Source: a virus
DNA: 44,104 bases
Virus record (IMG/VR): IMGVR_UViG_3300042934_000234
Coordinates: 1-44,104 of that record
Direction: 5' to 3' (one strand)
The notes below the pieces were generated by a model that saw only the letters and a list, made by a program, of their open reading frames with translations, did not search any database and had not been told where the DNA came from. The translations under genes and the position numbers were made by a program. Shown piece by piece: positions 6,679-44,042 of the stretch (the first letter of the stretch is position 1; every line of letters starts with the position of its first letter).

Positions 6679-8298
6679 ATGTTTCTAGCTGAGGTGATCA
6701 TCCCGAAAATGTTCACGGCATACGCCGAAGACATTGAATACCTACAAAACGGACTGCACAAGATCCAATACTTCTGTGAAGAGTGCGACCAAGCCTTCGC
6801 CGCAGCCTGGGGTCGAGCACCGGGTATTGGTTTCTATGAACGCGGAACCCGTTTCCACTGCCCTTTCTGTGGCACACTGCACGAAGAGAATGTCGTTGAA
6901 GTGAAACGCAATACGCGAGTACCTCACAAAGTGCGGCTTAGCTTAAAAGAACACAAGGACACGGTGATATTTGAAGTACAGTGTGAAATTGTTATGTTCA
7001 AAGACCTATTCAGCTTATCGGGTGGAAAGTATAGAGAAACCTTCCGCTTTGATCTTGCAAAACGGAGAGTTATTTTCGCTAGGTATGATAATCTTGGTGA
7101 GTTAATCGATTCTCAACTGCTAGGTAATCCATTCGAGCTGGATCTGTTCAAGGACAGCATTCTTAGCTCCTTCTTACCAAACAGCCTAGCTAACGCGAAG
7201 CAAAAAGCTGAACTAAACAGCATATTGAAGCTACTGCGTGAAACGGTACACGCCAAGCTAGAAAAGCAACTTGGGCACAAAATACCGTCGATGTTCGTTA
7301 CTTCGGGAAGGCTCCACGGAACCTTCTTACTGCCGATCTTCAACCTAGCATTCCGCGTTGCCTTCCCTAACGCGACAAACTTACCACTGTATTACCGGGG
7401 CGGGCATGCGGATCAGGCCGATTTCCGGGCGCTGATGATGATCAAAGACACCGAGTATATGGGCCGAGTCATGGAACTGACTAGCCAAAAGGTCGACCAC
7501 ATCACCGCGCTGATCAGGGTTAAGGGGTTGCCAGACAAACCAGCTATACGAAGAGCCCTGGGCGAGAATATGTTTGATGCTGATCGACTGTCAACAGCCT
7601 TCAAGCTCTGCACGAATTACGATTACGCGATGCGCCTATACGCCGGTTTTAAGCTTGTGCTTGTCGGATCGTACGAGAGAGGATACAAAACAAATGAGAA
7701 CCTATTTCAATTTTTACGGGCTATGCTCCCGATCTATGGTGAAGCCGGAATCGTTCAACTGATGGAGACTGAAAGCCATCTGTGGGACTGCGTTCTTCTA
7801 CACAATGCTGAGCTCAATGAAGAGAATCGCCAGGCGATCAAGACCGAAGGCGTAAAACTCAAAGACCTGCACGACTGGATGGCTAAGCGTCACCGCCTAC
7901 AGAATCACAAGAATCTAAAGCTGGATATACCTGAACACATCGTGAAGCGGTTATCCATGCAGACTGATCGCTTGAAGTTCTTTCTACCTAAGGAATCGGT
8001 TGAATTGCTGGAGGCCGGGGCGGAGTTGCATAACTGCGTAGCATCCTATAGTTCGGCAGTAAAAGACCATAAAAAGTGGATTGTCCTAGTAGCCGACGAA
8101 AAAGGCCGGCTGGCTGCGTGCCTCGAGATTAAGGATAAAGAACTGGTGCAGGCCAAGATCGACCGAAACAAAGCAGTATCGACAGATGCAAAACTCAACG
8201 CCGAGGTTATCGCCTGGGCGAAAGAGGCAGGAGTCACGATCACGACCAAGGACGTAAAGGAACAGGTAGAGATGCAGCCCTTGGTTGCTGTTGGTTAA
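6679..8298 (+). CDS. PcfJ-like protein with N-terminal zinc ribbon
   Basis: A 539-residue protein behind TTAGGAGGTG at 6664-6673. The N-terminus has a zinc-ribbon pattern, C33-x2-C36 and C61-x2-C64. The C-terminus (about residues 440-525) matches PcfJ-like proteins: ELHNCVASYSSAV, a strand CLEIKDKELVQAK and a following NKAVSTDAKLN segment. PcfJ was named from an Enterococcus conjugative plasmid, and relatives are common in phages and other mobile elements; their function is unsettled, though a nucleic-acid role is likely given the ribbon. It precedes the radical SAM gene by 18 bases. Confidence 0.75.
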   Translation: MFLAEVIIPKMFTAYAEDIEYLQNGLHKIQYFCEECDQAFAAAWGRAPGIGFYERGTRFHCPFCGTLHEENVVEVKRNTRVPHKVRLSLKEHKDTVIFEVQCEIVMFKDLFSLSGGKYRETFRFDLAKRRVIFARYDNLGELIDSQLLGNPFELDLFKDSILSSFLPNSLANAKQKAELNSILKLLRETVHAKLEKQLGHKIPSMFVTSGRLHGTFLLPIFNLAFRVAFPNATNLPLYYRGGHADQADFRALMMIKDTEYMGRVMELTSQKVDHITALIRVKGLPDKPAIRRALGENMFDADRLSTAFKLCTNYDYAMRLYAGFKLVLVGSYERGYKTNENLFQFLRAMLPIYGEAGIVQLMETESHLWDCVLLHNAELNEENRQAIKTEGVKLKDLHDWMAKRHRLQNHKNLKLDIPEHIVKRLSMQTDRLKFFLPKESVELLEAGAELHNCVASYSSAVKDHKKWIVLVADEKGRLAACLEIKDKELVQAKIDRNKAVSTDAKLNAEVIAWAKEAGVTITTKDVKEQVEMQPLVAVG

Positions 8299-19866: not shown

Positions 19867-20518
19867 AAAGCCAAAGCTTGACGCTAACATGAAGCTTAAA
19901 AGATCGTTTGAGATCCTTGACCTTAGGGCAGTCAATGACGAAGATAAAAAGGTTAAACGTCTCGACGGGCACCCTGCCGTCTATGATACAAAAACCGATA
20001 TAGGCGGCTGGTACTATGAGATTATTGAACGCGGAGCGTTTGATGAGTGCGACTTTGATGATGTACTGCTGTGTGTCAATCATGAAACTCGCAAAATCCC
20101 CCTTGCACGCAGCCGCAGGAATAACGCAAAAAGCACCATGAGAATTAAACCTGACAATATTGGCCTGTATTTTGAGGCAGACCTCGATACGGAAAATAAT
20201 TCTGAAGCTAGACAACTGTATTCCAGCGTTGAACGCGGAGATATGCAGGGCATGAGCTTCATTTTTGTTGTCAAAGAAGAAACATGGGAAAACCTCGATA
20301 AGGATATGCCGACTAGGCGCATTAAAAAAATCAAGAAAGTGTATGAGGTCTGCGCCGCGACATTTCCGTATTACGAATCCACTGATATTAACGCCCGCGA
20401 CAAACAGGCATTGGACAATGCCAAACTCGCATTGGAGAATGCGAGGTCGCAAGAGTTGGGGAACTCAAAGGCGCTTGATATATACAAACTGAAAAACAAA
20501 ATTTTGGGAGGAATATAA
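19859..20518 (+). CDS. prohead protease, HK97 family
   Basis: A 219-residue capsid maturation protease from GTG 19859. The fold signature is visible: DGHPAVYDT near residue 37, the catalytic His in CVNHETRK (H75) with following PLARS, and the catalytic Ser in GDMQGMSF (S133). A Lys/Arg-rich C-terminus follows. It cleaves the scaffold-like N-terminal delta region of the capsid protein encoded two bases downstream. Confidence 0.92.
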   Translation: MNEKPKLDANMKLKRSFEILDLRAVNDEDKKVKRLDGHPAVYDTKTDIGGWYYEIIERGAFDECDFDDVLLCVNHETRKIPLARSRRNNAKSTMRIKPDNIGLYFEADLDTENNSEARQLYSSVERGDMQGMSFIFVVKEETWENLDKDMPTRRIKKIKKVYEVCAATFPYYESTDINARDKQALDNAKLALENARSQELGNSKALDIYKLKNKILGGI

Positions 20519-23629: not shown

Positions 23630-24382
23630 ATGAAAAAGTTTTTCAGGAAAGCTGCAAAGATTTTAACCATGGCCTGTGTCATGGCAATGTTTGGCGTATT
23701 TGGTGCAGTAACCCTAGCGACTAACCCATCGACATCCAGCGCGACAGTCGGCAAAGACTATTTGCTCTATGTCAATAAAGGCACCGTCGCCGCTCCGGTA
23801 TGGCAGGTGGTTGGCGGACAGAGAAGTGCGTCGTTAAGCATGTCTGCAGATGAAATCGATGTTAGTGACAAGGCGTCTGGTGGATGGGCGGCTACGCTTG
23901 CTGGTATGAGATCTTGGAGCATTGATCTTGATGCATTACTATTGCTGAACGATGCAGGCATCAATATTCTGCGGCAAGCTTTTATGCAGGGTAAACAAAT
24001 TAATATCAAACTGCGCTATCCCGATAACTCATGCCAAATTGGATGGGCTTCGATAACCGATTTTAGCTCGGAAGCTCCGCATGATGGCGAAGCCAGTCTG
24101 AGCGGTACGTTAAACGGCGTCGGGCCGATATCTGACATATCGCAGACCGTTTCCATCGCCGAACCGACCGACTTAATATACTACATTGAGAGCAATGCGT
24201 ATGCATCAGTAGTCACTCTTGCTGGCGCTGCTGTAGAGGCGGTTAGCTATACGGCTACCGTTGCTGGTGAGCTCACCCTAAAAAGCTCTTACTTGGCAAC
24301 ATTGGCCGCAGGAGAGCATATTTTCTACGTTACTTTGTCCGTTGGCGGACAGGTGCCGGTAGTAGTAACAGTCACAGCGTAA
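23630..24382 (+). CDS. major tail tube protein with signal-peptide-like N-terminus
   Basis: A 250-residue tail tube protein of the TP901-1 type: GKDYLLYVNKGT, VVGGQRSASLSMSADEIDVS, KASGGWAATLAGMRSWSIDL and DFSSEAPHDGEASLSGTLNG are the family signature (about residues 40-180). The last 75 residues form a Thr/Val-rich Ig-like add-on (TATVAGELTL, HIFYVTLSVG). The first 29 residues (MKKFFRKAAKILTM, then ACVMAMFGVFGAV and TLA) look like a Sec signal peptide, which a cytoplasmically assembled tube should not have. No other ATG, GTG or TTG near residue 30 offers a shorter start. Confidence 0.85.
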   Translation: MKKFFRKAAKILTMACVMAMFGVFGAVTLATNPSTSSATVGKDYLLYVNKGTVAAPVWQVVGGQRSASLSMSADEIDVSDKASGGWAATLAGMRSWSIDLDALLLLNDAGINILRQAFMQGKQINIKLRYPDNSCQIGWASITDFSSEAPHDGEASLSGTLNGVGPISDISQTVSIAEPTDLIYYIESNAYASVVTLAGAAVEAVSYTATVAGELTLKSSYLATLAAGEHIFYVTLSVGGQVPVVVTVTA

Positions 24383-24389
24383 ATAAACG

Positions 24390-24417
24390 GGCGGCCAGCG
24401 AGCCGCCTTAATTTTTA
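24390..24417 (+). terminator. terminator after the tail tube gene
   Basis: GGCGGC (24390-24395) pairs with GCCGCC (24402-24407) around a 6-base loop and is followed by TTAATTTTT. It would limit downstream transcription after the abundant tube protein. Confidence 0.7.
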
Positions 24418-24432
24418 GGAGGCAAGCGAGTT

Positions 24433-24807
24433 ATGAAAAATACGATACCTTTTAATTTATTCGGCGAGCAACAATCCCTATGTTTCACGATCCTTGGCAT
24501 TGTTGAGTTGGAAAAAGCTCTAGGAGCATCTATTCAAAATATTATGACGTCTGGTAATGCTGGCTTTGGTTTTTGCCTATCCGCATTGCCAATCTGCCTA
24601 AAGAAAATCAATCCTCATCTATACGTCGAGAAAATCGCGGCGTATCTGTCCGAAGATGACCATGTTATTGATGACATTGCCGTTCCCATTATCCATGCAA
24701 TCGCCGCAAGCGGAGCACTAGGCAAAGCATCGCAAGACAGAGTACTGGCGATTTACTATCCCGAGCTATACAAAGTGCCAGAGGATGAAACCGAAAAAAA
24801 CTCCTAG
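24433..24807 (+). CDS. tail assembly chaperone, gpG-like
   Basis: A 124-residue helical protein located between tail tube and tape measure, the invariant place of the G/GT chaperones. It begins after TTTTTAGGAGGCAAGCGAG with AGGAGG at 24417-24422. Features include LFGEQQSLCFTILGIVELEK and SEDDHVIDDIAVPII. It ends TEKNS at TAG 24805. The slippery heptamer A AAA AAC at 24795-24801 sits just before this stop and would direct a fraction of ribosomes into the -1 frame. Confidence 0.85.
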   Translation: MKNTIPFNLFGEQQSLCFTILGIVELEKALGASIQNIMTSGNAGFGFCLSALPICLKKINPHLYVEKIAAYLSEDDHVIDDIAVPIIHAIAASGALGKASQDRVLAIYYPELYKVPEDETEKNS

Positions 24808-25127
24808 AGGACGGTGAAACAAAAGCCGTCCTCTCTTTTATTGAGTGGGTAGCATGGGCCACTCCTGATGCGTACGGTCCGCTTGGTTTACTGCCTGACC
24901 AGTTTGGCGACTTGCAACCTCACGAATTTCTGGCATTGCTTGAAGGCTACAAATGGCGCAGGGAGCAAGACGAGGATATGCAAGCGTATTTTACGGCACA
25001 AGCGATGAGTGTACACACCAAGCGTCCCGTACAGCCGAAGGACCTATTAAAACCGCTTCGGCAGACAAAAAAACAGCGAAGTAAGGACGATGACGAGAAA
25101 TATCTGAGAGAAAAGTTTAACCTCTAA
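24433..25127 (+). CDS. frameshifted tail assembly chaperone, gpGT-like
   Basis: A -1 slip at A AAA AAC (24795-24801) joins the 24433 frame to the frame running from 24801 to the TAA at 25125-25127, giving about 231 residues. The second part reads LLEDGETKAVLSFIEW, a conserved-looking YGPLGLLPDQFGDLQPHEF segment, then LEGYKWRREQDEDM and a basic tail KKQRSKDDDEKYLREKFNL. The frames differ by exactly -1 and the second frame has no good start of its own before 24912. The fusion product binds the tape measure during tail assembly. Confidence 0.8.
24795..24801 (+). other. -1 ribosomal frameshift site A AAA AAC
   Basis: The heptamer fits the X XXY YYZ rule in the zero frame (GAA AAA AAC) and is placed nine bases before the zero-frame stop codon end. 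Confidence 0.8.
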
Positions 25128-25141
25128 GGAGGTGGTAATAG

Positions 25142-27997
25142 TTGGCAACCGTAGCCGAACTACTCGTAAAAATTTCTGCAAATTCATCTGGACTACGCAA
25201 AGAACTAGAGTCCAGTAAACGACAGCTTAAAAGGCTTGACAAGGACATGCCAAGTCTGATTCCAGACAATGCTGGTGCCGTCATGGCAGGTTTTGGTGCG
25301 GCCATAACACTAGCCGCAGGCAAAGCGATCAAATTATCTGCCGCATTAGAGATGAACAAAATTTCTTTTACAACCATGCTGGGCAGCGCACAAGCCGCTG
25401 ACGCAATGCTGAATAAATTGGCGACACTAGCTGCCGGAAGCCCGTTTGGCTTTAATGAGTTGGTTGAATCAAGCAAAAAAATGCTTGGGCTTGGGGTTGC
25501 CGCACAAAATGTTTTGCCGTGGTTAACTACCATAGGTGACACCGTTTCTGCCTTCGGTGGAGGAACTGCACAGGTTCAATCAATCTCTGATGCGTTTGCC
25601 AAAATGTTGGCGCAGGGGACAATGGCAGCGGACCAAATGAACAGACTGTCTGATGCTGGTGTTCCTGGTTGGAAGTTGTTAGCAGAAGTGTTGAATGTCG
25701 ACGTTGCTACTGCTATGAAAATGGCAGAGCAGAAAAGCATTGACACGGGTTCAGCTATCCAGGGCATGATGGACAAGATGTCAACAAGGTATGCTGGATC
25801 AATGCAAAAGGCGTCGAATACCGTTACCGGTCAGTTGTCAAACATGGGCGACGTTGCTACACAGATAGCCACCAAGATGGGCACGAGTATTAGCAAGGGC
25901 TTAGACCTTACAAGCGCGCTAGGGAAAGCCAATAAACAGCTTGATGAGTTTTCGCAGAGGATTGACAGCGTTGGAATTACCAAGGCGATGACTGATTTAA
26001 TTCCAGATCAGGTTATCGTTGCATCAATGACGGCGGTTACTGCCTATTCTGCCGCTAGATTTATTCCGGCTATGGCGGCAATAAGAAATGCGTTTCTGTC
26101 GGCTAGGATCGCGGCTATTGCTTTTAGCGCGTCACTTGGTCCTTTAGGATGGGCGGTTGTTGGACTTACTGCTGTAGGTACAGAATTGTATATACAGTCA
26201 CAAAAAACCGAGAATCAGTTAGAATTGCTGAATGTAGCAATCGAACAAGAAGCAAATTACATGTCCGACACGAACGAAGAAGCAAATACGCTTATAAATA
26301 AGCTCCGGGAAATTACCGGTGCGGCAAAGATGGCTGAAGATCAGTTGGCAAAAGTAGCTGGCATGGCTGACTTTAGGCGGTCTGAGGACACGAATATTCT
26401 ACCGGCTATTGTGCCGACAAGCCCTCCTCCGGGCGGTGGCGGTGGGCAAACGGAAAAAGAAGCAAGGCAAATTGTAAGAGCTCAAGCAGATTACGAAATA
26501 GCTGTAGCGAGAGATAAGGCTAGTCTGCTTATCGACACAATCAAGTCGCAAGAAGAAGAAATGGACAGGCAACGCAAAAATGGCCTAAGCGGCGTTCGCG
26601 AGTATTGGTCAAAGCGCGAAACCGAAGATGCAAACGGACTTGCGGTTATCAAGGCGTATTGGGACAAACGGAACAGCCTTGAAATATCAGGAGTAAACGC
26701 TGAGCTTGACGCACTAAAAAAAGAGAAAACCGCTATAGAGAGCCAGATTGCCGAAACGTCAGACCCGTCAGAAACCATCGCGTTAAAGCGTGAGCTGTTA
26801 GGCGTAACAACTGACATAACGCTTAAGGAACGAGAATTAGGAACGGTCTTGAAAAACAACACCCAGTTGGCCGCTGATGAATCAATGAGCTTTATCACCA
26901 AGTACGCTGAACTTTTGAACAGCACCAAGAAAACCATGGCCGACATGAACACGAGCAATGCTATGCAGGGACTTAAGGGTTCGGCTAAAGGCTACGCGGA
27001 AATTGAAAACGAAAAGATAACAAGGCTTAAAGCGGTGCAAGACGTTGTTGACGGGTGGAGTAAGGGATTCGCAACAATAAAAGATGAGTACGGCGTAACG
27101 ATCACAGATACGGTTGAAATGGAAAAGTGGCGTGCGCAACAGAATGAAGCTATAAATATTCAAAGCCTAGATAGGAAAAACGAATACTACCAAACAGCAA
27201 GCGACATTCGCGCCGACATTGACGCCGCCTATCGCGCGAACAGCCTCACCGCACTGCGGGCTGCATTAACAGCGGAGAACGCCATTAGGCTGAGTAATTA
27301 TGAAGCGCAACAAACAATGATGGAAACGTGGCAATCTGCCTATTTAGCCGCGCACTCAACGACGGCTCAGTTGGTTGCCGATCTATATGCAGGGGCATTT
27401 GACGGACTACAAACGGCCATATCTGGAATGCTTGACGGCACAAAAACAGTCAGCGACGCTTTTACGGAGTTAGGGAAAACAATGTTAAAAGTCGTGACCG
27501 ATTACGTTGCGCAGTGGCTTGCCGGACGGATTATGATGGCCATCTTCGGTGAAAGTACAATGGCGACCGAAACGGCGGCAGGAGTGGCAGCAGGTGCGGC
27601 AATGGCGGCGGCGTGGGCACCAGCTGCAGCCGCTGTCAGTTTAGCGACGTTCGGCGCCAACGCAGGTCCGGCCATTGCTGGGATAACGGCTGCCAATGTC
27701 ACGGCAATGGGGTTTGCGATTCCCGCACTTGCCTCCGGTGGCATCACGACCGGGCCCACATTGGCAGAGATCGGCGAAGGCAAATACAAAGAAGCTGTTT
27801 TGCCGCTTAATAAGAAGGTTTTTGAAAGACTTGGGCTGACGGGTGGCAGCGCAGGCGGCCCGTCTAATCAGCTAATCATGAATATCCATGCTCTTGACGG
27901 TAAATCCGTTGAACGCTGGCTTGAGAGCAGCGGAGGACGTAAAATTAAACGGTATTTCGCAAGCCAAGCCCGTGAATTTGTCCCAGCGGAGGTGTGA
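25142..27997 (+). CDS. tape measure protein
   Basis: A 951-residue tail length regulator from TTG 25142 behind AAGGAGGTGG (25127-25136). N-terminal coiled coil (RKELESSKRQLKRLDKD), then the TIGR02675-type tape measure domain (FTTMLGSAQAADAML, AGSPFGFNELVESSKKM, FGGGTAQVQSISDAF, MNRLSDAGVPGWKLL), hydrophobic segments around 285-355, a central coiled coil, an Ala-rich hydrophobic stretch near 795-870 and a terminal PTLAEIGEGKYKEAVLP. At about 1.5 angstrom per residue the tail would be near 140 nm. It overlaps the next gene by 4 bases. Confidence 0.95.
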   Translation: MATVAELLVKISANSSGLRKELESSKRQLKRLDKDMPSLIPDNAGAVMAGFGAAITLAAGKAIKLSAALEMNKISFTTMLGSAQAADAMLNKLATLAAGSPFGFNELVESSKKMLGLGVAAQNVLPWLTTIGDTVSAFGGGTAQVQSISDAFAKMLAQGTMAADQMNRLSDAGVPGWKLLAEVLNVDVATAMKMAEQKSIDTGSAIQGMMDKMSTRYAGSMQKASNTVTGQLSNMGDVATQIATKMGTSISKGLDLTSALGKANKQLDEFSQRIDSVGITKAMTDLIPDQVIVASMTAVTAYSAARFIPAMAAIRNAFLSARIAAIAFSASLGPLGWAVVGLTAVGTELYIQSQKTENQLELLNVAIEQEANYMSDTNEEANTLINKLREITGAAKMAEDQLAKVAGMADFRRSEDTNILPAIVPTSPPPGGGGGQTEKEARQIVRAQADYEIAVARDKASLLIDTIKSQEEEMDRQRKNGLSGVREYWSKRETEDANGLAVIKAYWDKRNSLEISGVNAELDALKKEKTAIESQIAETSDPSETIALKRELLGVTTDITLKERELGTVLKNNTQLAADESMSFITKYAELLNSTKKTMADMNTSNAMQGLKGSAKGYAEIENEKITRLKAVQDVVDGWSKGFATIKDEYGVTITDTVEMEKWRAQQNEAINIQSLDRKNEYYQTASDIRADIDAAYRANSLTALRAALTAENAIRLSNYEAQQTMMETWQSAYLAAHSTTAQLVADLYAGAFDGLQTAISGMLDGTKTVSDAFTELGKTMLKVVTDYVAQWLAGRIMMAIFGESTMATETAAGVAAGAAMAAAWAPAAAAVSLATFGANAGPAIAGITAANVTAMGFAIPALASGGITTGPTLAEIGEGKYKEAVLPLNKKVFERLGLTGGSAGGPSNQLIMNIHALDGKSVERWLESSGGRKIKRYFASQAREFVPAEV

Positions 27998-35721: not shown

Positions 35722-35892
35722 GTGAACAAGAAACTCGAAAAAGCAAAAACCACGTTGGACAAGGCCGGTCACGCGATCGATGATCATGTTGAGAAGAAGG
35801 CCGCAAAACACAACTTTACCAAGCCGCAGGTCTGGCTAGGTCTGGCGATCGGCGTTATCGCCGCCGTGGCGGTGGTCAAGTGGGTGCTATAG
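35722..35892 (+). CDS. 56-residue single-pass membrane protein in the lysis cassette
   Basis: GTG 35722 follows TAGGAGG (35708-35714). The product has a basic helical N-terminal half (LEKAKTTLDKAGHAIDDHVE, KKAAKHNF) and one C-terminal membrane helix (VWLGLAIGVIAAVAVVKWVL). Its TAG is immediately followed by the next ATG, and its last 13 bases overlap the alternative frame starting at 35880. It may be a lysis accessory or antiholin-like protein. Confidence 0.7.
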   Translation: MNKKLEKAKTTLDKAGHAIDDHVEKKAAKHNFTKPQVWLGLAIGVIAAVAVVKWVL

Positions 35893-36212
35893 ATGGCAAG
35901 AAAATTGGTTATATTATCGTTGCTGTTATTGCTCTGTTGTGTGCCATCTATTGGTATGGCAGCCGAGATAACGGACCAGGAGCTGACGCGACTCGAAGCA
36001 ATCTTCAATCAACTGGAGAGCAACAACAAGACGCAGGAAACAAAATTGATGAGAGCAAGCGAATTGCTGAAGAAGTCAGAGACTCAAATCAATCTGCTCA
36101 ACGAGAAGTTGAGTCTAGCAGAGCAATCAATCAGTCAAGCGCAGAACTCATTAGCGAAGGCAAATCAATCCTTGCAGGCATACGAGAAAGAAGTAAAGCG
36201 AGAGCGCAATAA
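35880..36212 (+). CDS. possible inner-membrane spanin subunit (Rz-like), overlapping frame
   Basis: A 110-codon frame from GTG 35880, overlapping the next gene almost completely in another frame. It has an N-terminal membrane helix (IGYIIVAVIALLCAIYWYG) and a hydrophilic helical rest (SKRIAEEVRDSNQSAQREV), the layout of an i-spanin. A GGTGG site lies at about 35870. Because T-rich membrane codons stay hydrophobic in shifted frames, it could also be a shadow of the next gene; the overlap of Rz and Rz1 genes in other phages makes a real gene plausible. Confidence 0.4.
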   Translation: MGAIDGKKIGYIIVAVIALLCAIYWYGSRDNGPGADATRSNLQSTGEQQQDAGNKIDESKRIAEEVRDSNQSAQREVESSRAINQSSAELISEGKSILAGIRERSKARAQ

Positions 36213-36270
36213 ATTAAAGTTTGAACGTAACCTATTACTCATCGCCGTTGGTGTATTAGCCTTTCGATAG
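35893..36270 (+). CDS. exported coiled-coil membrane protein, spanin-like
   Basis: A 125-residue protein whose ATG directly follows the previous TAG. It has a signal peptide (MARKLVILSLLLLLCCVPS, ending GMAA), a long coiled coil (about 30-105: ELTRLEAIFNQLES, SELLKKSETQINLLNEKLS) and a short C-terminal hydrophobic helix (LLLIAVGVLAF). Two Cys at 15-16 could serve as a non-canonical lipobox, otherwise cleavage after MAA is likely. N-terminal export plus C-terminal membrane helix is the architecture of unimolecular spanins, or it may be one partner of a two-component spanin. Function is inferred from position after the endolysin. Confidence 0.65.
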   Translation: MARKLVILSLLLLLCCVPSIGMAAEITDQELTRLEAIFNQLESNNKTQETKLMRASELLKKSETQINLLNEKLSLAEQSISQAQNSLAKANQSLQAYEKEVKRERNKLKFERNLLLIAVGVLAFR

Positions 36271-36331: not shown

Positions 36332-36363
36332 TTGTAGATTTATTGCATAAAATGCGATATATT
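36332..36363 (+). promoter_or_regulatory. possible promoter for the channel-TIR cassette
   Basis: TTGTAG (36332-36337) and GATATA (36356-36361, 18-base spacing) upstream of the cassette. Weak matches in an AT-rich stretch. Confidence 0.3.
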
Positions 36364-36406
36364 GGAATTGTTGGTGAATATGGGACAGCCCTTGAGAGGT
36401 GTTGCG

Positions 36407-37018
36407 ATGCAAAACGGCTTTTTATATGAAATTATCGTAAAGATCATTGTTGCATTAAACTATTTAAATTTGGTTGAATTATTTAAGTGTGTCGCCAGAA
36501 GACTAACTACGGTAGAAGAGAATAAGAAAGCAAGTATTAACATCGCTATCGATATTTTTATCGTTATGAAATGGGTGTTAATTATTATCTTTTGGGCTAA
36601 TCAATGGAGTGAGTACTGGTATTCTTTTGTTGCTTTCTATTTGATCGCGTTTAATTTACATACGTACTTCTATTATCACATATGGGAAGACCGAGCCATA
36701 ACTAACGTTCAAATCTCGATAGAACGAGTTAAGCGTCGATTCGTCAACCTCATTCTCGCGATAGCCTTTTCTACGGTATGTTATGCATATCTGTATGCAG
36801 TTTGTTTTCGAGACCAATTTACGTGGGCGTATGGCGTCTCAACCAACATCGCGGCTATTCAGTATAGTATGGCCAATATTTTCGGCGGATCAAATGATAT
36901 TGTTAAGCCCAACACCGACATAGGTGAAATGATTTTGATATCTCAACTTATAGTGACTTTTCTATTTATCACGATTATAATGTCGCGGTCTATCCCGCAG
37001 TTTGAAGTAAAAGAATGA
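36407..37018 (+). CDS. four-helix membrane protein with K+-channel-like pore region
   Basis: ATG 36407 has GAGAGGTG (36394-36401) five bases upstream and gives 203 residues; an upstream TTG/ATG would add up to 15. Four membrane helices near 45-63, 70-90, 113-133 and 168-193 are seen. Between helices 3 and 4, the segment IQYSMANIFGGSNDIVKP lines up with the pore helix and filter of two-helix-pore K+ channels (YxS...TVGYGDIVP), but the filter itself is degenerate. It overlaps the ThsB-like TIR gene by 4 bases in the ATG frame (37015) and is AT-rich relative to the phage. A membrane effector activated by a TIR signal is the working idea. Confidence 0.7.
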   Translation: MQNGFLYEIIVKIIVALNYLNLVELFKCVARRLTTVEENKKASINIAIDIFIVMKWVLIIIFWANQWSEYWYSFVAFYLIAFNLHTYFYYHIWEDRAITNVQISIERVKRRFVNLILAIAFSTVCYAYLYAVCFRDQFTWAYGVSTNIAAIQYSMANIFGGSNDIVKPNTDIGEMILISQLIVTFLFITIIMSRSIPQFEVKE

Positions 37019-37032
37019 TGGAGGTTTTTAAT

Positions 37033-37536
37033 ATGGCTTACCGAAACAAAACGTATGTCTGTTTTGATGCGGATAATGATATGAATTATTATTCACTTAT
37101 GAAGGCGTGGAAACAAAACGACAATACTAACTTTGATTTTTACAATGCTCATGATCTTAACAATCTCCGGGATGGAAGTAGCGACGACACGATAAAAAGG
37201 AAGCTTTGGGAGCGGCTACTTAATACAAAGTTTTTTGTTATATTAATTGGCGAACATACAAAAAACCTTTATAAGTTTGTTAGGTGGGAAATAGAACAAG
37301 CTCTTAGTCTTGGGCTACCAATTATTGCGGTTAACTTGAATGGGAAACGGCGAAAAGATGACGAGTTGTGTCCTCCCATTATTCGGGACGAACTAGCGGT
37401 TCACGTCAGCTTTCAGGCAGCTATTATGCAAAAATCACTTGAATCATGGGGCATCGATCACGATAGTTATAAAAAACAAGGTAAAACTGGAGCGTTTCAT
37501 TACCCGGATAGCGTTTATAAAGATCTAGGGTTGTAA
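37033..37536 (+). CDS. ThsB-like TIR domain protein (DUF1863)
   Basis: ATG 37033 is preferred for its GGAGG site (37020-37024), giving 167 residues. The fold is the ThsB/MTH538 TIR-like domain: first strand KTYVCFDADND, then FDFYNAHDLNN, FFVILIGEHTKN and helix FVRWEIEQAL with a Glu (E86/E88) at the place of the TIR catalytic residue, ending LGLPIIAVNLNG. ThsB proteins of Thoeris sense phage and make an NAD-derived signal for a partner effector. Here the partner would be the channel-like protein; no SIR2-SLOG or Macro ThsA is nearby. A terminator follows. Confidence 0.8.
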   Translation: MAYRNKTYVCFDADNDMNYYSLMKAWKQNDNTNFDFYNAHDLNNLRDGSSDDTIKRKLWERLLNTKFFVILIGEHTKNLYKFVRWEIEQALSLGLPIIAVNLNGKRRKDDELCPPIIRDELAVHVSFQAAIMQKSLESWGIDHDSYKKQGKTGAFHYPDSVYKDLGL

Positions 37537-37946: not shown

Positions 37947-38015
37947 GAAAGCAAATAGAGTTATCTGTGGCATCACCATAGGTAACTTTTCTTTTATCAG
38001 AAAGCAGGTGGGATG

Positions 38016-38828
38016 ATGCGCCCGATTTGGAAAGGAATACTCTCCTTTGGTCTCGTGAACGTACCTGTTACTATGTTTTCCGCTATCCAGAAGAAAACTA
38101 TTACCTTCAACCAGTTGCGGCGGTCGGACCATAGCCGTATCAAATACAAGAAGGTCGCTAGCGATGGCGTTGAAGTCGAACAGAATGAAATAGTCCGCGG
38201 CTATGAAGTGTCGCCTGACCGCTATGTGGTTATAGAGGACGGCGAATTAGAGGCTATCGCACCTAAGGCCAGCAGACATATTGAGATAGCCGAATTTGTT
38301 AAACTACAGGAGATCGACCCGCGCCACTATGACAGCTCGTATTATCTGGCGCCGGATCAGGGAGCAGGTAAAGCCTATGCGCTGTTGCTGGCTGCCATGG
38401 CGGAGGCAGATGTCGTGGGCATCGCTCGTTTCGTGCTTCGCAGCAAAGAGTACCTGGCGGCGATCCGTCCAGCCGGTAATGCGTTGACACTATCGACCAT
38501 GTTGTTTGCCGACGAGATCCTGCCGGCAGAGCGACTTGATTCGTATCTTCCTCAGGACGCCAAACTGACCGATAAAGAAATGGATATGGCCCGGCTGTTC
38601 ATTCAGTCGCAGACGGCTAAGTTTGAGCCTGAGAAGTATGAAAACGAGTATTATAAAGCAGTTACACAGCTGATCGATCGGAAAGCGGAGACCGGCACGG
38701 TGGCAACTGCCGAGCGTGCATCCGGCAAGGTGCTCGATATCATGGCTGCGCTTGAGGCTAGCCTAAAGGCAGTGCAACCGAAGTTGCAGAAGGAGAAAAA
38801 GACAAGGAAGAAAGCATCCGGAGCGTGA
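38016..38828 (+). CDS. ku: Ku family DNA end-binding protein
   Basis: A 270-residue bacterial Ku (ATG 38016 with AGGTG at 38006-38010, giving the canonical MRPIWKGILSFGLVNVPV start). The core Ku barrel continues with ITFNQLRRSDHSRIKYKKV, RGYEVSPDRYVVIED and SYYLAPDQGAGKAYALL, and the C-terminal part includes EKYENEYYKAVTQLI and a basic tail (KKTRKKAS). Ku binds double-strand ends and recruits LigD for end joining. No ligase is in the window, so the host or an unseen gene must supply it. A Ku gene within a prophage is uncommon; it may protect the linear genome or be cargo. Confidence 0.93.
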   Translation: MRPIWKGILSFGLVNVPVTMFSAIQKKTITFNQLRRSDHSRIKYKKVASDGVEVEQNEIVRGYEVSPDRYVVIEDGELEAIAPKASRHIEIAEFVKLQEIDPRHYDSSYYLAPDQGAGKAYALLLAAMAEADVVGIARFVLRSKEYLAAIRPAGNALTLSTMLFADEILPAERLDSYLPQDAKLTDKEMDMARLFIQSQTAKFEPEKYENEYYKAVTQLIDRKAETGTVATAERASGKVLDIMAALEASLKAVQPKLQKEKKTRKKASGA

Positions 38829-39512: not shown

Positions 39513-39743
39513 ATGATTAAGGTGTTTATTCGCGAACGGCGCATGGAACGACACATGACGCAGAAGCAGTTAGCCGAAAAGCTAAAGAATAGCGCGGGAA
39601 AGCCTTTAAGTCAGAGTGATTTAAGTCGATACGAAAAGGGAAAGCCATTACCTCCGTTGGATATTCTTTATCAAATAGCTGTTGTTTTGAAATATAAACT
39701 AGACGACCTTGTACCGGTCGAACTTGATGAGCCTAAAAAATAG
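39513..39743 (+). CDS. XRE-family transcriptional regulator
   Basis: A 76-residue HTH_XRE protein: RERRMERHMTQKQLAEKLKN, a turn with SQSDLSRYEKGKPLPPLDIL and YQIAVVLKYKLDDLV. DNA-binding only, no effector domain. It lies divergently from the exported-protein gene with a good promoter and terminates in its own hairpin, suggesting a stand-alone regulator of lysogeny or cargo genes. Confidence 0.85.
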   Translation: MIKVFIRERRMERHMTQKQLAEKLKNSAGKPLSQSDLSRYEKGKPLPPLDILYQIAVVLKYKLDDLVPVELDEPKK

Positions 39744-39755
39744 GCTCATTTTTAT
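39727..39755 (+). terminator. terminator of the XRE gene
   Basis: ATGAGCCTA (39727-39735), AAAAA loop, TAGGCTCAT (39741-39749), then TTTTT. The stop codon lies in the stem. Confidence 0.85.
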
Positions 39756-39793
39756 TTTGTCCATTTTTATTCATTATTAACAACTTTTTGGGG

Positions 39794-39848
39794 ATATATG
39801 CATATATATAAACTAGAAAAAACAACAGAGGGGTGAATATAGCACCCC
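39794..39848 (+). repeat. palindrome and hairpin upstream of the FtsK module
   Basis: ATATATGCATATAT (39794-39807) is a perfect 14-bp palindrome. A second stem GGGGTG (39830-39835) pairs with CACCCC (39843-39848) around AATATAG. They lie between the XRE terminator and the FtsK module and could be a promoter/operator, origin or oriT-like element. Confidence 0.5.
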
Positions 39849-39870
39849 ATATAGCGAAGGAGGGATTGAG

Positions 39871-40149
39871 GTGTTAGAAATACCGATAGCGACCAAGGTT
39901 ATTCCGTTGGCGATTGCTGGATTGATTGCTCTCTCGCCATTGCCAAAACCTGATGCATTATTCGAAATGGCTAAAACCACAAAGATTCACAAAGAGCATG
40001 TGACAACTGATAACGGCTATACAGAAACTATCACTATTACCGAGCGTGATTCTAACGAGAAGAAGGGTATAGTGTCAAAAGCGGGTTCTGAAATCTGGCA
40101 AGTTGGCAAGGGTGTTTGCAAGAAAGTCTACTGGTGGATTAAAAAGTAA
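39871..40149 (+). CDS. small membrane protein ahead of the FtsK-like ATPase
   Basis: A 92-residue protein from GTG 39871, with AAGGAGG at 39857-39863. One hydrophobic segment at residues 9-25 (VIPLAIAGLIALSPLP) and a soluble rest with a terminal KKVYWWIKK. The TAA overlaps the next ATG (TAATG), so it is coupled to the ATPase, which itself has no membrane helix; it may anchor the ATPase. Confidence 0.65.
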   Translation: MLEIPIATKVIPLAIAGLIALSPLPKPDALFEMAKTTKIHKEHVTTDNGYTETITITERDSNEKKGIVSKAGSEIWQVGKGVCKKVYWWIKK

Positions 40150-41234
40150 TGGGCATGTTGGCGAAATGGTTAGCCAAGCGAAGAGGAACAGAATTGCCTT
40201 TCGTTGTTGCCGATACGGTAAAAATACTGTGGCCTGATGAAACGCCGACACTAATCAGGCAGAGCAAGACAGACACAGGTTATGAGTTTGTATATGTCGT
40301 GCCAAGAAATATGAGTTTTGATGACTTCACTCGAAAAGAGGGTAATTTTAGAGCGTCTACAGGCTGCAAAATAGCCTTCGATATCAACGGCAAAGCGTTA
40401 ACCATGCAAGTGTTTGAAGCGGAGTTGCCAAAAGAAATAGACTATGAATGGAATCCTGCCGACTATCAGAAAATGCATCTACCTATACCGCTTGGAATCG
40501 GCCTAGATGGTGTGTGTGTAGTTGACTTGGCAGAACTACCTCACATGTTTCTTTCGGGGCCAACAGGCACAGGTAAGAGCATGATAACACGATCGATAGC
40601 AACTAGCTTACAGATCGGCAGCGCAGAAAAGATGTATATGGTGATTGTGGATTATGGCGAGGTTGACTATCTTTGGTTAGAAAATCACGCTTTGTTAGTG
40701 ACAGACCAAGAAAAGGCATTACAAGTCTTTCAGTTATTGAACAAGGAAATGGACAGACGAAAGAAGCTATTAGTCAAATATCGAGTTGAGAAAGTCACTA
40801 AGCTGCCCGAGCCGATACCGTTTATCGTTGTACTGATAGATGAGTTTGTAGAGATCAAGGATGATGATAAGTCCGTTAAGCTAGTTGATCGGCTATGCAG
40901 GGTTGGCAGAAAAACAGGCATACATATTGTTGCTGCTACACAAAGATTGTCACATACGGCTGTAAAAGGTGCAGGTGATATTAAACATAACTTCCCTGCT
41001 AGGCTGTCTTTCCGCTGCGATGCGGTAAACAGTCGGATGATTCTTGGTGACGATTGCGACCTAGCCAGCAAACTGCCTAATGTAAGAGGAAGGGCGATAT
41101 TCCGTAATGGCGATCCGGTTGAATTGCAGACGTTCAAGATTGATCCGCCATTGGCCGAGAAGTTAGTGAATCAGCTTCCTTACAGGGAGGTTTTCAAGGT
41201 TGAACCAGCATCAATTCTGTTACCACCGCGATAG
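40149..41234 (+). CDS. FtsK/SpoIIIE (TcpA/HerA-type) DNA translocase
   Basis: A 361-residue RecA-fold ATPase. Walker A GPTGTGKS (137-144, K143), Walker B FIVVLIDEFVEI near residues 226-237, and AATQRLSHTAVKGAGDIKHNF as the sensor/hexamer region. Unlike TcpA coupling proteins of ICEs it lacks N-terminal membrane helices, a role the preceding small protein may fill. Paired with a replication-relaxation gene that starts inside its 3' end, it resembles mobilisation or segregation modules of plasmids and ICEs. Confidence 0.85.
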   Translation: MGMLAKWLAKRRGTELPFVVADTVKILWPDETPTLIRQSKTDTGYEFVYVVPRNMSFDDFTRKEGNFRASTGCKIAFDINGKALTMQVFEAELPKEIDYEWNPADYQKMHLPIPLGIGLDGVCVVDLAELPHMFLSGPTGTGKSMITRSIATSLQIGSAEKMYMVIVDYGEVDYLWLENHALLVTDQEKALQVFQLLNKEMDRRKKLLVKYRVEKVTKLPEPIPFIVVLIDEFVEIKDDDKSVKLVDRLCRVGRKTGIHIVAATQRLSHTAVKGAGDIKHNFPARLSFRCDAVNSRMILGDDCDLASKLPNVRGRAIFRNGDPVELQTFKIDPPLAEKLVNQLPYREVFKVEPASILLPPR

Positions 41235-41811
41235 CGAAATAATCCTATCGCTGAAAAGCATGGGTGCGCTCGATCTTTATCAAATCAGGTATTTGCACTT
41301 TCCTAGCATCAGAACGGCGCGGCGCAGACTGGAAGTATTGGCTGAGAGGAAAAGTATCAATCGCGTTCGCCCGTCTATGGATGTGCCATTTCATTACTGG
41401 ATAGGCAAGAAGCCGGGGCAATTAGAGCACAGAATCGGCGTGAACTATACTCGGCTGTTCTTGCAAAAGTGGGAAAAAAGCCTGCAATCCTGGGAATACG
41501 AACCGCAGTATTATGACATTCTCAGGCCGGATGGATTTGCAACGGTTAAAACAGGCAATGAATTAAGCTGTTATTTTATTGAGTTTGACCGCTGCTTCGA
41601 CCCTTTTGATAAGGTGCAAAAATATAATCTGCTTTATTCGTCCCGGGAGTTTGCTGAAGCATGGTGGGCGAAATCTGTTAAGCGGTTCCCTGTTATCCTT
41701 GTCGTCAGTGAGGACGTTGACAGAGCGAAGAAAGGATTAAAAGACAATAAGCATAACCTTGAATTTCGGATCATGGACTATCGGCAGATTAAGGAGGGGT
41801 TCATGTGTTAG
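41200..41811 (+). CDS. replication-relaxation family protein
   Basis: A 203-residue protein from TTG 41200 behind AGGGAGG (41184-41190), overlapping the ATPase by 35 bases. N-terminal winged helix (SEIILSLKSMGALDLYQIRYL, ARRRLEVLAERKSI) and C-terminal part with HRIGVNYTRLFLQ, PDGFATV, CYFIEFDRC and FPVILVVSED match the Replic_Relax family of plasmid and ICE proteins, which has a restriction-endonuclease-like fold pattern. It probably binds or nicks DNA at an origin of this module. Confidence 0.75.
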   Translation: MNQHQFCYHRDSEIILSLKSMGALDLYQIRYLHFPSIRTARRRLEVLAERKSINRVRPSMDVPFHYWIGKKPGQLEHRIGVNYTRLFLQKWEKSLQSWEYEPQYYDILRPDGFATVKTGNELSCYFIEFDRCFDPFDKVQKYNLLYSSREFAEAWWAKSVKRFPVILVVSEDVDRAKKGLKDNKHNLEFRIMDYRQIKEGFMC

Positions 41812-42035
41812 GTAGCATGCTTTATGAAGTGTTTATTAAACCCAGCGGCGTTGGTTTCCCTATTACCCTTGTCGTGGTGCTGAACTTTGGTGTATGGGTT
41901 TATTCAGAAATTATCATGGCAACAGGTGGAGAAACTAGAAGCATCGAGAAGCTTAAGAAATTCATGGTAATAAATACTGTACTAGGCGCAGCAATGCTAA
42001 TTGTTAATGGAATTTTCGGCAAGATGCAAGGGTGA
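41805..42035 (+). CDS. small two-helix membrane protein
   Basis: A 76-residue protein from GTG 41805 overlapping the previous stop, with AAGGAGGGG upstream. Two membrane helices (FPITLVVVLNFGVWVYSEII, VINTVLGAAMLIVNGIFG) flank a charged loop. Coupled to the replication-relaxation gene; unknown function. Confidence 0.65.
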   Translation: MLGSMLYEVFIKPSGVGFPITLVVVLNFGVWVYSEIIMATGGETRSIEKLKKFMVINTVLGAAMLIVNGIFGKMQG

Positions 42036-42180
42036 TAGTGTCAGTGTTGCCACTTCCCCTAACACCCTTTGTTCGTGAAGTTTGTGTCTGTTTTGTCTGG
42101 CTCTAAGGCTGTTTTTTGTAGTAATGATGCTATGGATATCTGTATATGGCGCGGTATAGGTTGCGGTACAGGAGGGTTTT

Positions 42181-42522
42181 ATGAAACTGGTCGTCCTAGT
42201 GCTGGTTGCCATGGTTGTCTTATCTGGCGTGTGCTTGGCAGGATTTTTTGATAGTGCAGCCGATACGGTGAATGAAAAGGTTGACCAGCAAACAGATAAG
42301 TTGATGGCCAAGGTTGTTGCCGGATTAGACAAAGGATTTGATTGGACGGTTAAGAAGGTCTTGGGGTTCATTTATTGGGTGATGCAAGTTATATCTATCG
42401 TTGCCATCGGCTGGCTGCTGTCAATGCTCTGCGATAAGGATAGCAGAAAGTGCGTTAGAATCTTGGTTGTCTTGGTGTCGATCAGCCTAACAGTTGATAA
42501 GTTAAAAAGCCTAATTAATTAA
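42181..42522 (+). CDS. exported or membrane small protein
   Basis: A 113-residue protein with GGAGGG before the ATG. N-terminal signal (MKLVVLVLVAMVVLSGVCLA, cut near LAG), a hydrophilic helix (DSAADTVNEKVDQQTDKLM), then two membrane helices (FIYWVMQVISIVAIGWLLS, VRILVVLVSISLTV). With the neighbouring small proteins it belongs to the FtsK module. The 145 bases before it (42036-42180) hold no supported gene. Confidence 0.65.
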   Translation: MKLVVLVLVAMVVLSGVCLAGFFDSAADTVNEKVDQQTDKLMAKVVAGLDKGFDWTVKKVLGFIYWVMQVISIVAIGWLLSMLCDKDSRKCVRILVVLVSISLTVDKLKSLIN

Positions 42523-42537
42523 AAGGAGTGTTTTGTA

Positions 42538-42744
42538 ATGGAAAAAATCATACGTCTAGTTAACGAGGTTGCCGAAATGTGTCAGCGCGAAGAAGTTCCG
42601 TTGCTCTGCATCTATGGGAAAAGCGGTGATATCGAAGTTAAAGAATATGCGCCTGAGGAAACGCCGGAAATTTACAGTAAGGCGCGAAGCGTACTGTTTA
42701 ATTCAACGAAACCAAAAATGCGGACAATGAAAATTCAAGGTTAG
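42538..42744 (+). CDS. hypothetical small protein
   Basis: A 68-residue protein after AAAAGGAG (42522-42529). Helical start (IIRLVNEVAEMCQREE) and a strand VPLLCIYGKSG, charged end. No family known. A terminator follows. Confidence 0.6.
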   Translation: MEKIIRLVNEVAEMCQREEVPLLCIYGKSGDIEVKEYAPEETPEIYSKARSVLFNSTKPKMRTMKIQG

Positions 42745-42771
42745 ACAGGCGCGGCGGTCGATTGAGATTAT

Positions 42772-42812
42772 GGCGTAAAAAAAAATAGCCGGGATAACCC
42801 CCGGCTATTCGA
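42772..42812. terminator. bidirectional terminator
   Basis: AATAGCCGGG (42784-42793) pairs with CCCGGCTATT (42800-42809). Nine A residues upstream give a strong U tract on the reverse strand and a weaker one on the forward strand. Confidence 0.8.
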
Positions 42813-42918
42813 ATTTTGTTGGAAAATGTCGGAATTTGCGATATTTAAAAAGCAGGAATTTTGGAAAAACGCAAGAACGAATTATATCTTTATACCTAAA
42901 AATAAGACAAATGGCCTT

Positions 42919-42937
42919 ATGTCGAATAATGTCGAAT
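42919..42937 (+). repeat. tandem 10-bp operator-like repeat
   Basis: ATGTCGAAT occurs at 42919-42927 and 42929-42937, with a related ATGTCGGAAT at 42826-42835, ahead of the HTH gene. A 10-bp step places repeats on one helix face, as for repressor operators. The 243 bases from 42745 to 42987 otherwise hold only the terminator and this element. Confidence 0.45.
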
Positions 42938-42987
42938 GTTGTATTATGTACTTAATGATATGCGGCTCCATAGCAAGGGGGTTGGGA

Positions 42988-43188
42988 TTGGAGCGAAACT
43001 ATATCCAAGAGTACAGATTACAACAAGGCATTAAAACAAAACGAGCATTGGCAAATTTAGCAGGAGTGCCGGAGTCAACACTTAGGGAGATTGAGAACCA
43101 CAAAATGCGTGGCAATCCAGCAACACTGGATAAAATCGCACGGGCGCTCGGGGTTAGAAGGGAGGAATTGTATGTAAGGCCGAAGTAA
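42988..43188 (+). CDS. XRE-type small regulator (Cro-like)
   Basis: TTG 42988 six bases after AGGGGG (42976-42981) gives 66 residues; the frame is open upstream to 42826 but the added part is not protein-like. HTH: YIQEYRLQQGIKTKRALANLA, PESTLREIENHKMRG, ARALGVRREELYV. It faces the reverse-strand XRE gene 3' to 3' and may be a Cro- or antirepressor-like partner. Confidence 0.7.
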   Translation: MERNYIQEYRLQQGIKTKRALANLAGVPESTLREIENHKMRGNPATLDKIARALGVRREELYVRPK

Positions 43189-43189
43189 A

Positions 43190-43474
43190 TTATTTTTTAT
43201 CTGTTAGTCCATATTTCCAACGCAAATAGTCCTTAAACAATTTTAGCTCCTGCAGAGCCAGCGCGGGAAAATCATCATTTTCTCTAAAAAAATCTTCAAC
43301 TGATATTTCTAGCCCTTCGCAGATTTTTTCGATGGTATTAAACTGCGCTGCGTTATTCGACTTGGAAACTATGTTATGGAGAGTTGATTGTGTTATTCCA
43401 GATCGATCAGCGAGATTATTCACAGACATGCCAAAGGCATCGCAAAAATACAAAATGCGTTTTGAAAGGTCCAT
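43190..43474 (-). CDS. XRE-family phage repressor
   Basis: A 94-residue HTH_XRE protein on the reverse strand; ATG 43474 has GGAGG seven bases upstream, whereas a start at 43504 has none. HTH: RILYFCDAFGMSVNNLADRS, TQSTLHNIVSKSNNA, FNTIEKICEGLEISVEDFF. Its promoter and an inverted repeat lie just upstream. A likely lysogeny repressor near the attachment end. Confidence 0.82.
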   Translation of the reverse strand: MDLSKRILYFCDAFGMSVNNLADRSGITQSTLHNIVSKSNNAAQFNTIEKICEGLEISVEDFFRENDDFPALALQELKLFKDYLRWKYGLTDKK

Positions 43475-43535
43475 CTTTTGGCCTCCGAATCCTATTTTTG
43501 CCAAAAGTATACCTTTAGATTCTATATGATGCCAA
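43475..43535 (-). promoter_or_regulatory. promoter and candidate operator of the repressor
   Basis: On the reverse strand: TTGGCA (43530-43535) and TATACT (43506-43511), 18-base spacing. The inverted repeat CTTTTGGC (43475-43482) and GCCAAAAG (43500-43507) flanks the start and overlaps the -10, so the repressor may bind there to control itself. Confidence 0.55.
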
Positions 43536-43926: not shown

Positions 43927-43943
43927 TTTATATGTTTTAATAA

Positions 43944-44042
43944 TCATTCATCACCTTGGCCGAGTGCGCGCGGACGTTGAAAAAGGCTGGGGCTAAGGAA
44001 GTGCACGGACTGGCACTGGCGAGTGGGGCGTCGGGATGGTAA
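43944..44042 (+). pseudogene. comF: 3' fragment of comF, cut by the prophage (host DNA, attR side)
   Basis: From 43944 the frame reads SFITLAECARTL, then KKAGAKEVHGLALASG and ends GW at TAA 44040-44042. TLAECARxLKKAGAxxV is the C-terminal signature of ComF-family amidophosphoribosyltransferase-like proteins used in DNA uptake. No start or upstream ComF sequence exists in the phage, so this is the separated 3' end of a host gene and marks the right attachment region near 43944-43960. The base composition also shifts to GC-rich here. Confidence 0.7.

Follow-up and report, generated by a model that had tools for sequence, protein, structure and literature searches.

A phage accessory cassette pairing an FtsK/TcpA-type ATPase with a predicted MOBC-type nuclease

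Introduction

Close described relatives of the locus analysed here come from conjugation. The coupling ATPase TcpA of plasmid pCW3 (Clostridium perfringens) carries N-terminal membrane helices in its chain. The MobC group of relaxases corresponds to Pfam family PF13814 (PMC5357655); MOBC relaxases have a restriction-endonuclease active site, and TraX has a winged helix and binds a set of five direct repeats that lies some 70-120 bp away from its nick (PMC12857230). In streptococcal IMEs these relaxases are reported to be paired with VirD4 partners and not with TcpA (PMC5357655). Two further systems are of interest as functional models: TdtA-NurA of Thermus, in which an FtsK/HerA-type pump with a nuclease donates DNA from a mobile element (PMC5365140), and the archaeal Ced system, in which small two-helix proteins form VirB2-like pili (PMC11868833).

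Annotations of many Bacillus phages include FtsK and "replication-relaxation" genes, but no function has been established for the two together. Virulent Andromedavirus phages carry such a module, and its downstream protein has been annotated as TrbC/VirB2 (PMC9658697); a 2525-bp piece is the main difference between phages 268TH007 and 268TH002 (PMC9476937). Here we analyse a gene pair of this kind in the linear IMG/VR record IMGVR_UViG_3300042934_000234, a stretch of 44,104 bp called the window below, and describe it as a single cassette. It has a predicted nuclease active site and a dedicated membrane partner, the deep evolution of its two main proteins is congruent, phages with and without it occur naturally and, within one clade, a DNA site is linked to it.

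Results

A compact module in the accessory region of a prophage

Judged by its gene content, the window reads as a prophage, apparently integrated. Its phage genes comprise DUF2800, DNA polymerase A, VapE-like, SNF2, terminase, portal and capsid genes, followed in our inventory by tape measure, tail, holin and amidase genes; an accessory region begins at about 35.9 kb, after the amidase, and the module is placed there, 3' of the lysis genes. The left end of the record is a cut. Near the right end no integrase was seen, and a C-terminal reading frame at positions 43943-44042 resembles ComF by eye, so that the attachment site of the prophage probably lies at this end, within a host comF gene.

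The same region holds several other genes. Nested overlapping frames of 110 and 125 aa lie 3' of the amidase (35880-36270) in a spanin-like layout. At 36362-37536 a ThsB-type TIR gene (PADLOC E=1.9e-77) is coupled to a gene for a 218-aa multi-helix membrane protein in which no known domain was found; the two resemble a Thoeris-type defence pair whose membrane effector is unusual. A Ku gene (Pfam E=6.5e-50) occupies positions 38013-38828.

The features of the module are given below, with identities to L002, a related locus (compared loci carry L numbers throughout) whose FtsK is 92% identical to that of the window.

39513-39743, + strand: XRE-type HTH regulator, 5' of the module (HTH_3 E=2.6e-12)
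39794-39807, no strand assigned: 14-bp perfect palindrome ATATATGCATATAT, probably due to chance; absent in L002
39830-39848, + strand: leader hairpin GGGGTG-N7-CACCCC, directly 5' of the first gene's ribosome-binding site
39871-40149, + strand: 92-aa membrane protein with one N-terminal helix by hydropathy; 91% identical in L002
40149-41234, + strand: FtsK/TcpA-type ATPase motor, 361 aa (PF01580; FtsK_SpoIIIE E=8.8e-21)
41200-41811, + strand: Replic_Relax/MOBC-type protein (PF13814 E=1.8e-9), predicted winged helix plus PD-(D/E)XK nuclease core
41805-42035, + strand: 76-aa two-helix membrane protein; 74% identical in L002
42181-42522, + strand: 113-aa protein of pilin-like shape, with a signal-like helix plus two helices
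42784-42809, + strand: 10-bp stem, terminator-like inverted repeat 3' of the module

The initial annotation had described a coupled set of genes with plasmid and conjugation kin, built from an FtsK ATPase without membrane helices, a separate small membrane protein before it, an overlapping Replic_Relax protein and two further membrane proteins, and this description holds in every part. No membrane helix is predicted in the ATPase (40149-41234). The 92-aa protein encoded before it, whose N-terminus is kept in L004, is a candidate for its membrane anchor. A small protein comparable to the 76-aa protein is present in L004 and L005, and the 113-aa protein has counterparts of like shape and position in L004, L005, L012 and L049; its sequence similarity to the L012 counterpart is not significant, shape and place alone being in common, and a VirB2 sequence match was not found for it. 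An HTH gene likewise stands 5' of the module in L002, L049, L012 and many Bacillus modules.

Both the FtsK_SpoIIIE and the Replic_Relax matches lie above the curated Pfam cut-offs. In the window, a GGAGG precedes the Replic_Relax start, which lies 34 bases ahead of the final base of ftsK. Since this distance is identical in all five intact members of the clade (the window, L002, L004, L005 and L012), most of which have a Shine-Dalgarno-like sequence before the start, the overlap is real, and its layout points to translational coupling. Set against L002, the module proteins show purifying selection, with dN/dS values of 0.06 for FtsK, 0.19 for the 92-aa protein and 0.085 for the 76-aa protein; for Replic_Relax, silent sites are saturated in this comparison.

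The palindrome and hairpin upstream, which had been put forward as a possible oriT or origin, are both present, but that role finds no support. Four perfect palindromes of at least 14 bp occur in the window against 3.1 +/- 1.8 in shuffles, and 36 of 2000 shuffles of the palindrome's own intergenic stretch held one; the palindrome is lost in L002. With a chance-level count and no conservation there, it was rejected as an oriT or origin. The hairpin folds as RNA more strongly than its shuffles (z -3.1; z -1.9 in L002) and is kept in L002 with one G-U pair. It is a leader hairpin, and its position beside a ribosome-binding site says nothing in favour of an oriT. The leader had no Rfam match above threshold as a structured RNA.

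The ATPase resembles TcpA and the nuclease belongs to the relaxase family PF13814

In a search with a sequence profile of the window's clade, TcpA of pCW3 was the best solved match (E=1.4e-38), the other matches including FtsK (4.4e-33) and TrwB (1.9e-5). The structural model of the window FtsK (pLDDT 86) gave the same order: its six best fold matches were all TcpA of pCW3, with E down to 8.8e-26, and FtsK motors ranked after them. HerA proteins of HerA-nuclease defence pairs are distant fold relatives. The Walker motifs are invariant in the FtsK-type ATPases that were compared. By profile and by modelled fold, the window ATPase is thus closest to the conjugative coupling ATPase TcpA.

The Replic_Relax protein scores 38.4 bits against PF13814, for which the curated cut-off is 25.3; this family was absent from 14 control chromosomes. 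Its AF2 model (pLDDT 93) has a wHTH and an alpha-beta-beta-beta-alpha-beta core. Fold matches of the model are weak (best E 1.4e-3), but they are led by FokI and include other restriction enzymes; a sequence search against the PDB returned winged-helix matches only. Residues H77, E101, D111, E128, K138 and Y142 are invariant across 16 Replic_Relax sequences, most of which are only 19-44% identical. We therefore predict, from the model, a winged helix joined to a PD-(D/E)XK nuclease of the MOBC relaxase family.

The module is widespread in phages and plasmids

The window FtsK matched 236 phage and 731 plasmid records, some of them only general ATPase kin. Searching phages and plasmids by tblastn with the window Replic_Relax gave no matches, and its relatives were reached through FtsK and its neighbour genes. 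A genome scan with the window FtsK also gave none, and one with the Replic_Relax alignment found L012 only. The L012 contig is binned as Archaeoglobus, yet its genes look bacterial and phage-like, and it is probably mis-binned. L005 has many GGGACAA/TTGTCCC repeats in the non-coding DNA 3' of its module (positions 7300-7700).

A Bacillus-type Replic_Relax matches 57 phage records. Separately, 57 loci holding the FtsK-type gene were examined, and Replic_Relax directly follows that gene in 52 of them. The exceptions are the large phages SP-15, Moonbeam and LIS04, L044 (cut at its end) and L045, the last counted as such through a mis-chosen ORF, the pair being present there. In 49 of 57 modules the pair has a gene for a small protein with two predicted helices as its immediate neighbour; among 72 other genes of these loci the corresponding share is 14%. 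In several modules this protein begins with a motif like I-x-F-x-x-F-M; it lies upstream in plasmids and temperate phages and downstream in Andromedavirus-type phages, and retention of the motif at either position suggests a shared docking segment. The downstream two-helix protein of an Andromedavirus-type phage has a weak TrbC/VirB2 match (E=9.5e-4, below the cut-off).

As in the window, the module lies 3' of the lysis genes in phages vB_BhaS-171, GBSV1, TS-12, SpaA1, 268TH008 and Page. It measures 2.5-2.7 kb in phages and plasmids alike (about 2.7 kb in the window). All six Priestia plasmids examined carry it in the same form, and in plasmid pSJEF4-2-1 it stands beside that plasmid's own MobQ and transfer system. 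The earlier impression that this is not a usual phage module is therefore refuted: the adjoining pair recurs in temperate and virulent phages. A search outside phages found related modules on plasmids, and with kin in unrelated phages as well, the module is not confined to the window's phage family.

The cassette is dispensable in a relative and appears to move between phages

Phage 268TH007 has the 2525-bp piece (L018, positions 24127-26652) and 268TH002 lacks it, their flanks being identical for more than 1 kb on either side. The piece contains a small membrane protein, FtsK, Replic_Relax and an HTH gene. The 9-bp repeat AACACCTCC at both of its edges is probably the ribosome-binding sites of two HTH genes. 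This natural presence and absence between identical flanks shows that the cassette is dispensable in these phages, which are relatives outside the window's own family.

Within that family, the sister phage L049 (TerL 78%, tail protein 69%) has a divergent module at the window's place after the lysis genes. Its FtsK is 38% identical and still intact, and a Replic_Relax remnant at 19984-20469 has the winged helix without the PD, ExD and K residues. In the 77.8-kb record of L002, which is possibly incomplete, no window-related terminase was found. The divergent module of the sister phage, set against the near-identical FtsK of L002, argues on sequence grounds that the module moves between phages.

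The FtsK and Replic_Relax trees have the same deep clades, with plasmid members inside phages in at least two places. In L021, a Replic_Relax near that of 268TH007 is paired with a different FtsK, which indicates exchange also within the module. The module is thus a phage moron, or accessory cassette: a unit of its own, between core modules, and present or absent in close relatives such as 268TH007 and 268TH002.

A conserved non-coding site accompanies the module in the Bacillus clade

Among five Priestia plasmids the non-coding DNA 5' of the module is 83-88% conserved over about 330-380 bp, and the flanks farther out are unrelated. Upstream of the module in the Bacillus clade we found a non-coding core site of 35-45 bp, approximately GGACAAGC-N7-GCATAGGCTATTAACACGAAAGC. 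It occurs once per locus and on one strand, at 14 loci with E<0.01 (best 1e-10), and was not found elsewhere in the roughly 0.6 Mb scanned. All four exact matches in IMG/VR are in module-bearing contigs. The ten plasmid matches are nine Geobacillus/Parageobacillus records, eight of them also FtsK matches and the ninth (CP103462) unannotated, and one Bacillus weihaiensis plasmid, newly reached through the site, with its module about 200 bp downstream of it. Among phages the matches were GBSV1, where the module is present, and a Streptococcus satellite at E=0.9 only. In these three public collections, nearly all core-site matches are at modules.

Repeats of 11-12 bp follow the core site in L047, L046, L018 and L021. 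In L057-L061, L009, L031, L033, L036 and others, the module is likewise accompanied by the site, by repeats of 11-12 bp and by a leader rich in purines, GTTAAAGAATGAGCCGAAGGCGGG; no Rfam family was found for this leader upstream of modules. The arrangement of site and repeats would fit a transfer origin of the nick-and-repeat type; alternatively, the core site could be a promoter plus operator (TGGACA-N17-TATTAA) or a leader RNA. Neither the window nor L002 yielded the core site. A similar sequence lies just 5' of ftsK in L012, TGGACGACCAGGGGTGCATA, with a score of 815 that is within chance for the whole scan, and as a counterpart of the core site it is suggestive only.

Discussion

We propose that the module is an accessory translocase-nuclease cassette derived from a coupling protein and a relaxase, most likely serving DNA mobilisation, a reading in which we place about even confidence. 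The observations behind it are the gene content, gene order and coupling, selection, predicted folds, intact active sites and the behaviour of the cassette in relatives. From these we infer how the module might nick DNA, pump it, assemble at the membrane and be put to use. The TcpA/FtsK-type translocase and the MOBC-type nuclease, with their small membrane proteins, would be a pared-down pair of coupling protein and relaxase that lacks the other parts of a type IV secretion system. The winged helix of the Replic_Relax protein would bind a site, which the nuclease core would nick or cut; the ATPase ring, which the small helical proteins would anchor to the membrane, would then pump DNA from the cut site. 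The module's most likely use would be to mobilise the DNA that carries it, with donation by way of a resident conjugation pore or of pilin-like proteins that the module itself encodes. The VirB4 model TIGR00929 detected no VirB4 in the window and the other phage records searched (its sole match in the window is the FtsK gene), and the control conjugative plasmid W03 was positive; PF03135 was uninformative for VirB4, as it failed on the conjugative control plasmid too. With no VirB4 detected in these phage records, any DNA transfer would need a resident pore or a minimal pore of the module's own.

Several points speak against mobilisation. Virulent carriers have no obvious use for a mating function, and pSJEF4-2-1 already has its own MobQ. 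No VirB4 was detected in the phage records searched, the window and L002 gave no match to the core site, and the reported MOBC partners of streptococcal IMEs are VirD4 and not TcpA (PMC5357655), a rule from which the pairing seen here departs.

The virulent carriers, and plasmids with a MobQ system of their own, would be better explained if the module were an exclusion or defence device, that is, a membrane-placed translocase-nuclease that locates and destroys incoming phage or plasmid DNA and is carried as a moron. We regard this as possible, though clearly less probable than mobilisation. It agrees with the position in the accessory region, downstream of the lysis genes and near a Thoeris-type ThsB gene, with the module's own HTH regulators, with carriers that include temperate phages, virulent phages and plasmids, and with the distant fold kinship between the ATPase and HerA-nuclease defence pairs. 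Presence and absence between near-identical phages and the exchange of divergent versions at one place would also be expected of it. Exclusion leaves unexplained, however, why the nuclease is of a relaxase family; the conserved site linked to the module looks more like a self-site, and the same form of the module in six of six Priestia plasmids is more like a core plasmid function. PADLOC models fitted the general ATPase domain only, with no match to the HerA-nuclease system model.

For phages Novomoskovsk and Bolokhovo, the authors proposed a role in segregation (PMC9658697), in which the pair would help copies of a plasmid or plasmid-prophage to resolve and partition. An ATPase of the FtsK family, and ParM or ParG-like genes near the module in some members, are in keeping with this. 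We nevertheless consider it improbable here: the window phage is apparently integrated and its module has no partition gene, the 361-aa motor is without the extra C-terminal DNA-reading domain of FtsK, its partner is a predicted nuclease, and virulent phages carry the module.

Capture of a whole mobilisable plasmid, a satellite or an ICE remnant, which the initial annotation had considered and which the related modules on plasmids would favour, is very unlikely and was rejected, since the cassette of about 2.7 kb has no replication, integrase or partition domain (none for replication or integration in 39513-43504) and sits in an apparently integrated prophage, the unit is 2.5-2.7 kb in either kind of carrier, plasmid copies fall inside the phage tree at two or more places, and in plasmids too the module is one unit among others.

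Returning to mobilisation, a broader and rather doubtful extension would be that phages and plasmids of Bacillota, virulent phages included, share a minimal machine for DNA donation, sending DNA out of cells without a classical type IV secretion system; its components would be a TcpA-like pump in split form, a nuclease of the MOBC type, two-helix proteins resembling pilins, and a DNA site of its own. The parts and the FtsK and Replic_Relax pair are already known; in the literature searched, the window clade, the split membrane parts, the TcpA/MOBC pairing and the cassette-linked site had no description as a system. The module joins phage morons to the conjugation toolkit, and makes it testable whether phages carry conjugation-like DNA machines.

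Comparison with known systems

The window ATPase has its motor core in common with TcpA of pCW3. It lacks the membrane helices that TcpA has within its chain, and the separate 92-aa protein may replace them. Unlike TcpA, the module has no Tcp transfer system alongside, and its nuclease partner is of the MOBC type, whereas that of TcpA is TcpM, of the tyrosine-recombinase type.

With the MOBC relaxases, such as TraX of pAD1 and MobC of CloDF13, the window Replic_Relax protein shares membership of PF13814, the winged helix and PD-(D/E)XK core (here predicted), and a gene adjoining that of a coupling-type ATPase. The partner in the window is an FtsK/TcpA-type ATPase and not VirD4, and mating-pair genes are also absent there.

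TdtA-NurA of ICETh1, which acts in Thermus transjugation, likewise combines a membrane-associated pump of the FtsK/HerA family with a nuclease on a mobile element (PMC5365140). Its HerA-type pump and NurA nuclease are of other families, however, and a restriction enzyme is also required; we liken the window module to it in action and not as a member.

The nearest counterparts in phages are the FtsK/SpoIIIE and replication-relaxation pairs of Bacillus phages (268TH007, Andromedavirus, Pagevirus and GBSV1). These share with the window the gene order, a small membrane protein and, often, a position 3' of the lysis genes. Their proteins are about 25% identical to those of the window, whose clade has in addition the 76-aa membrane protein and the pilin-shaped 113-aa protein.
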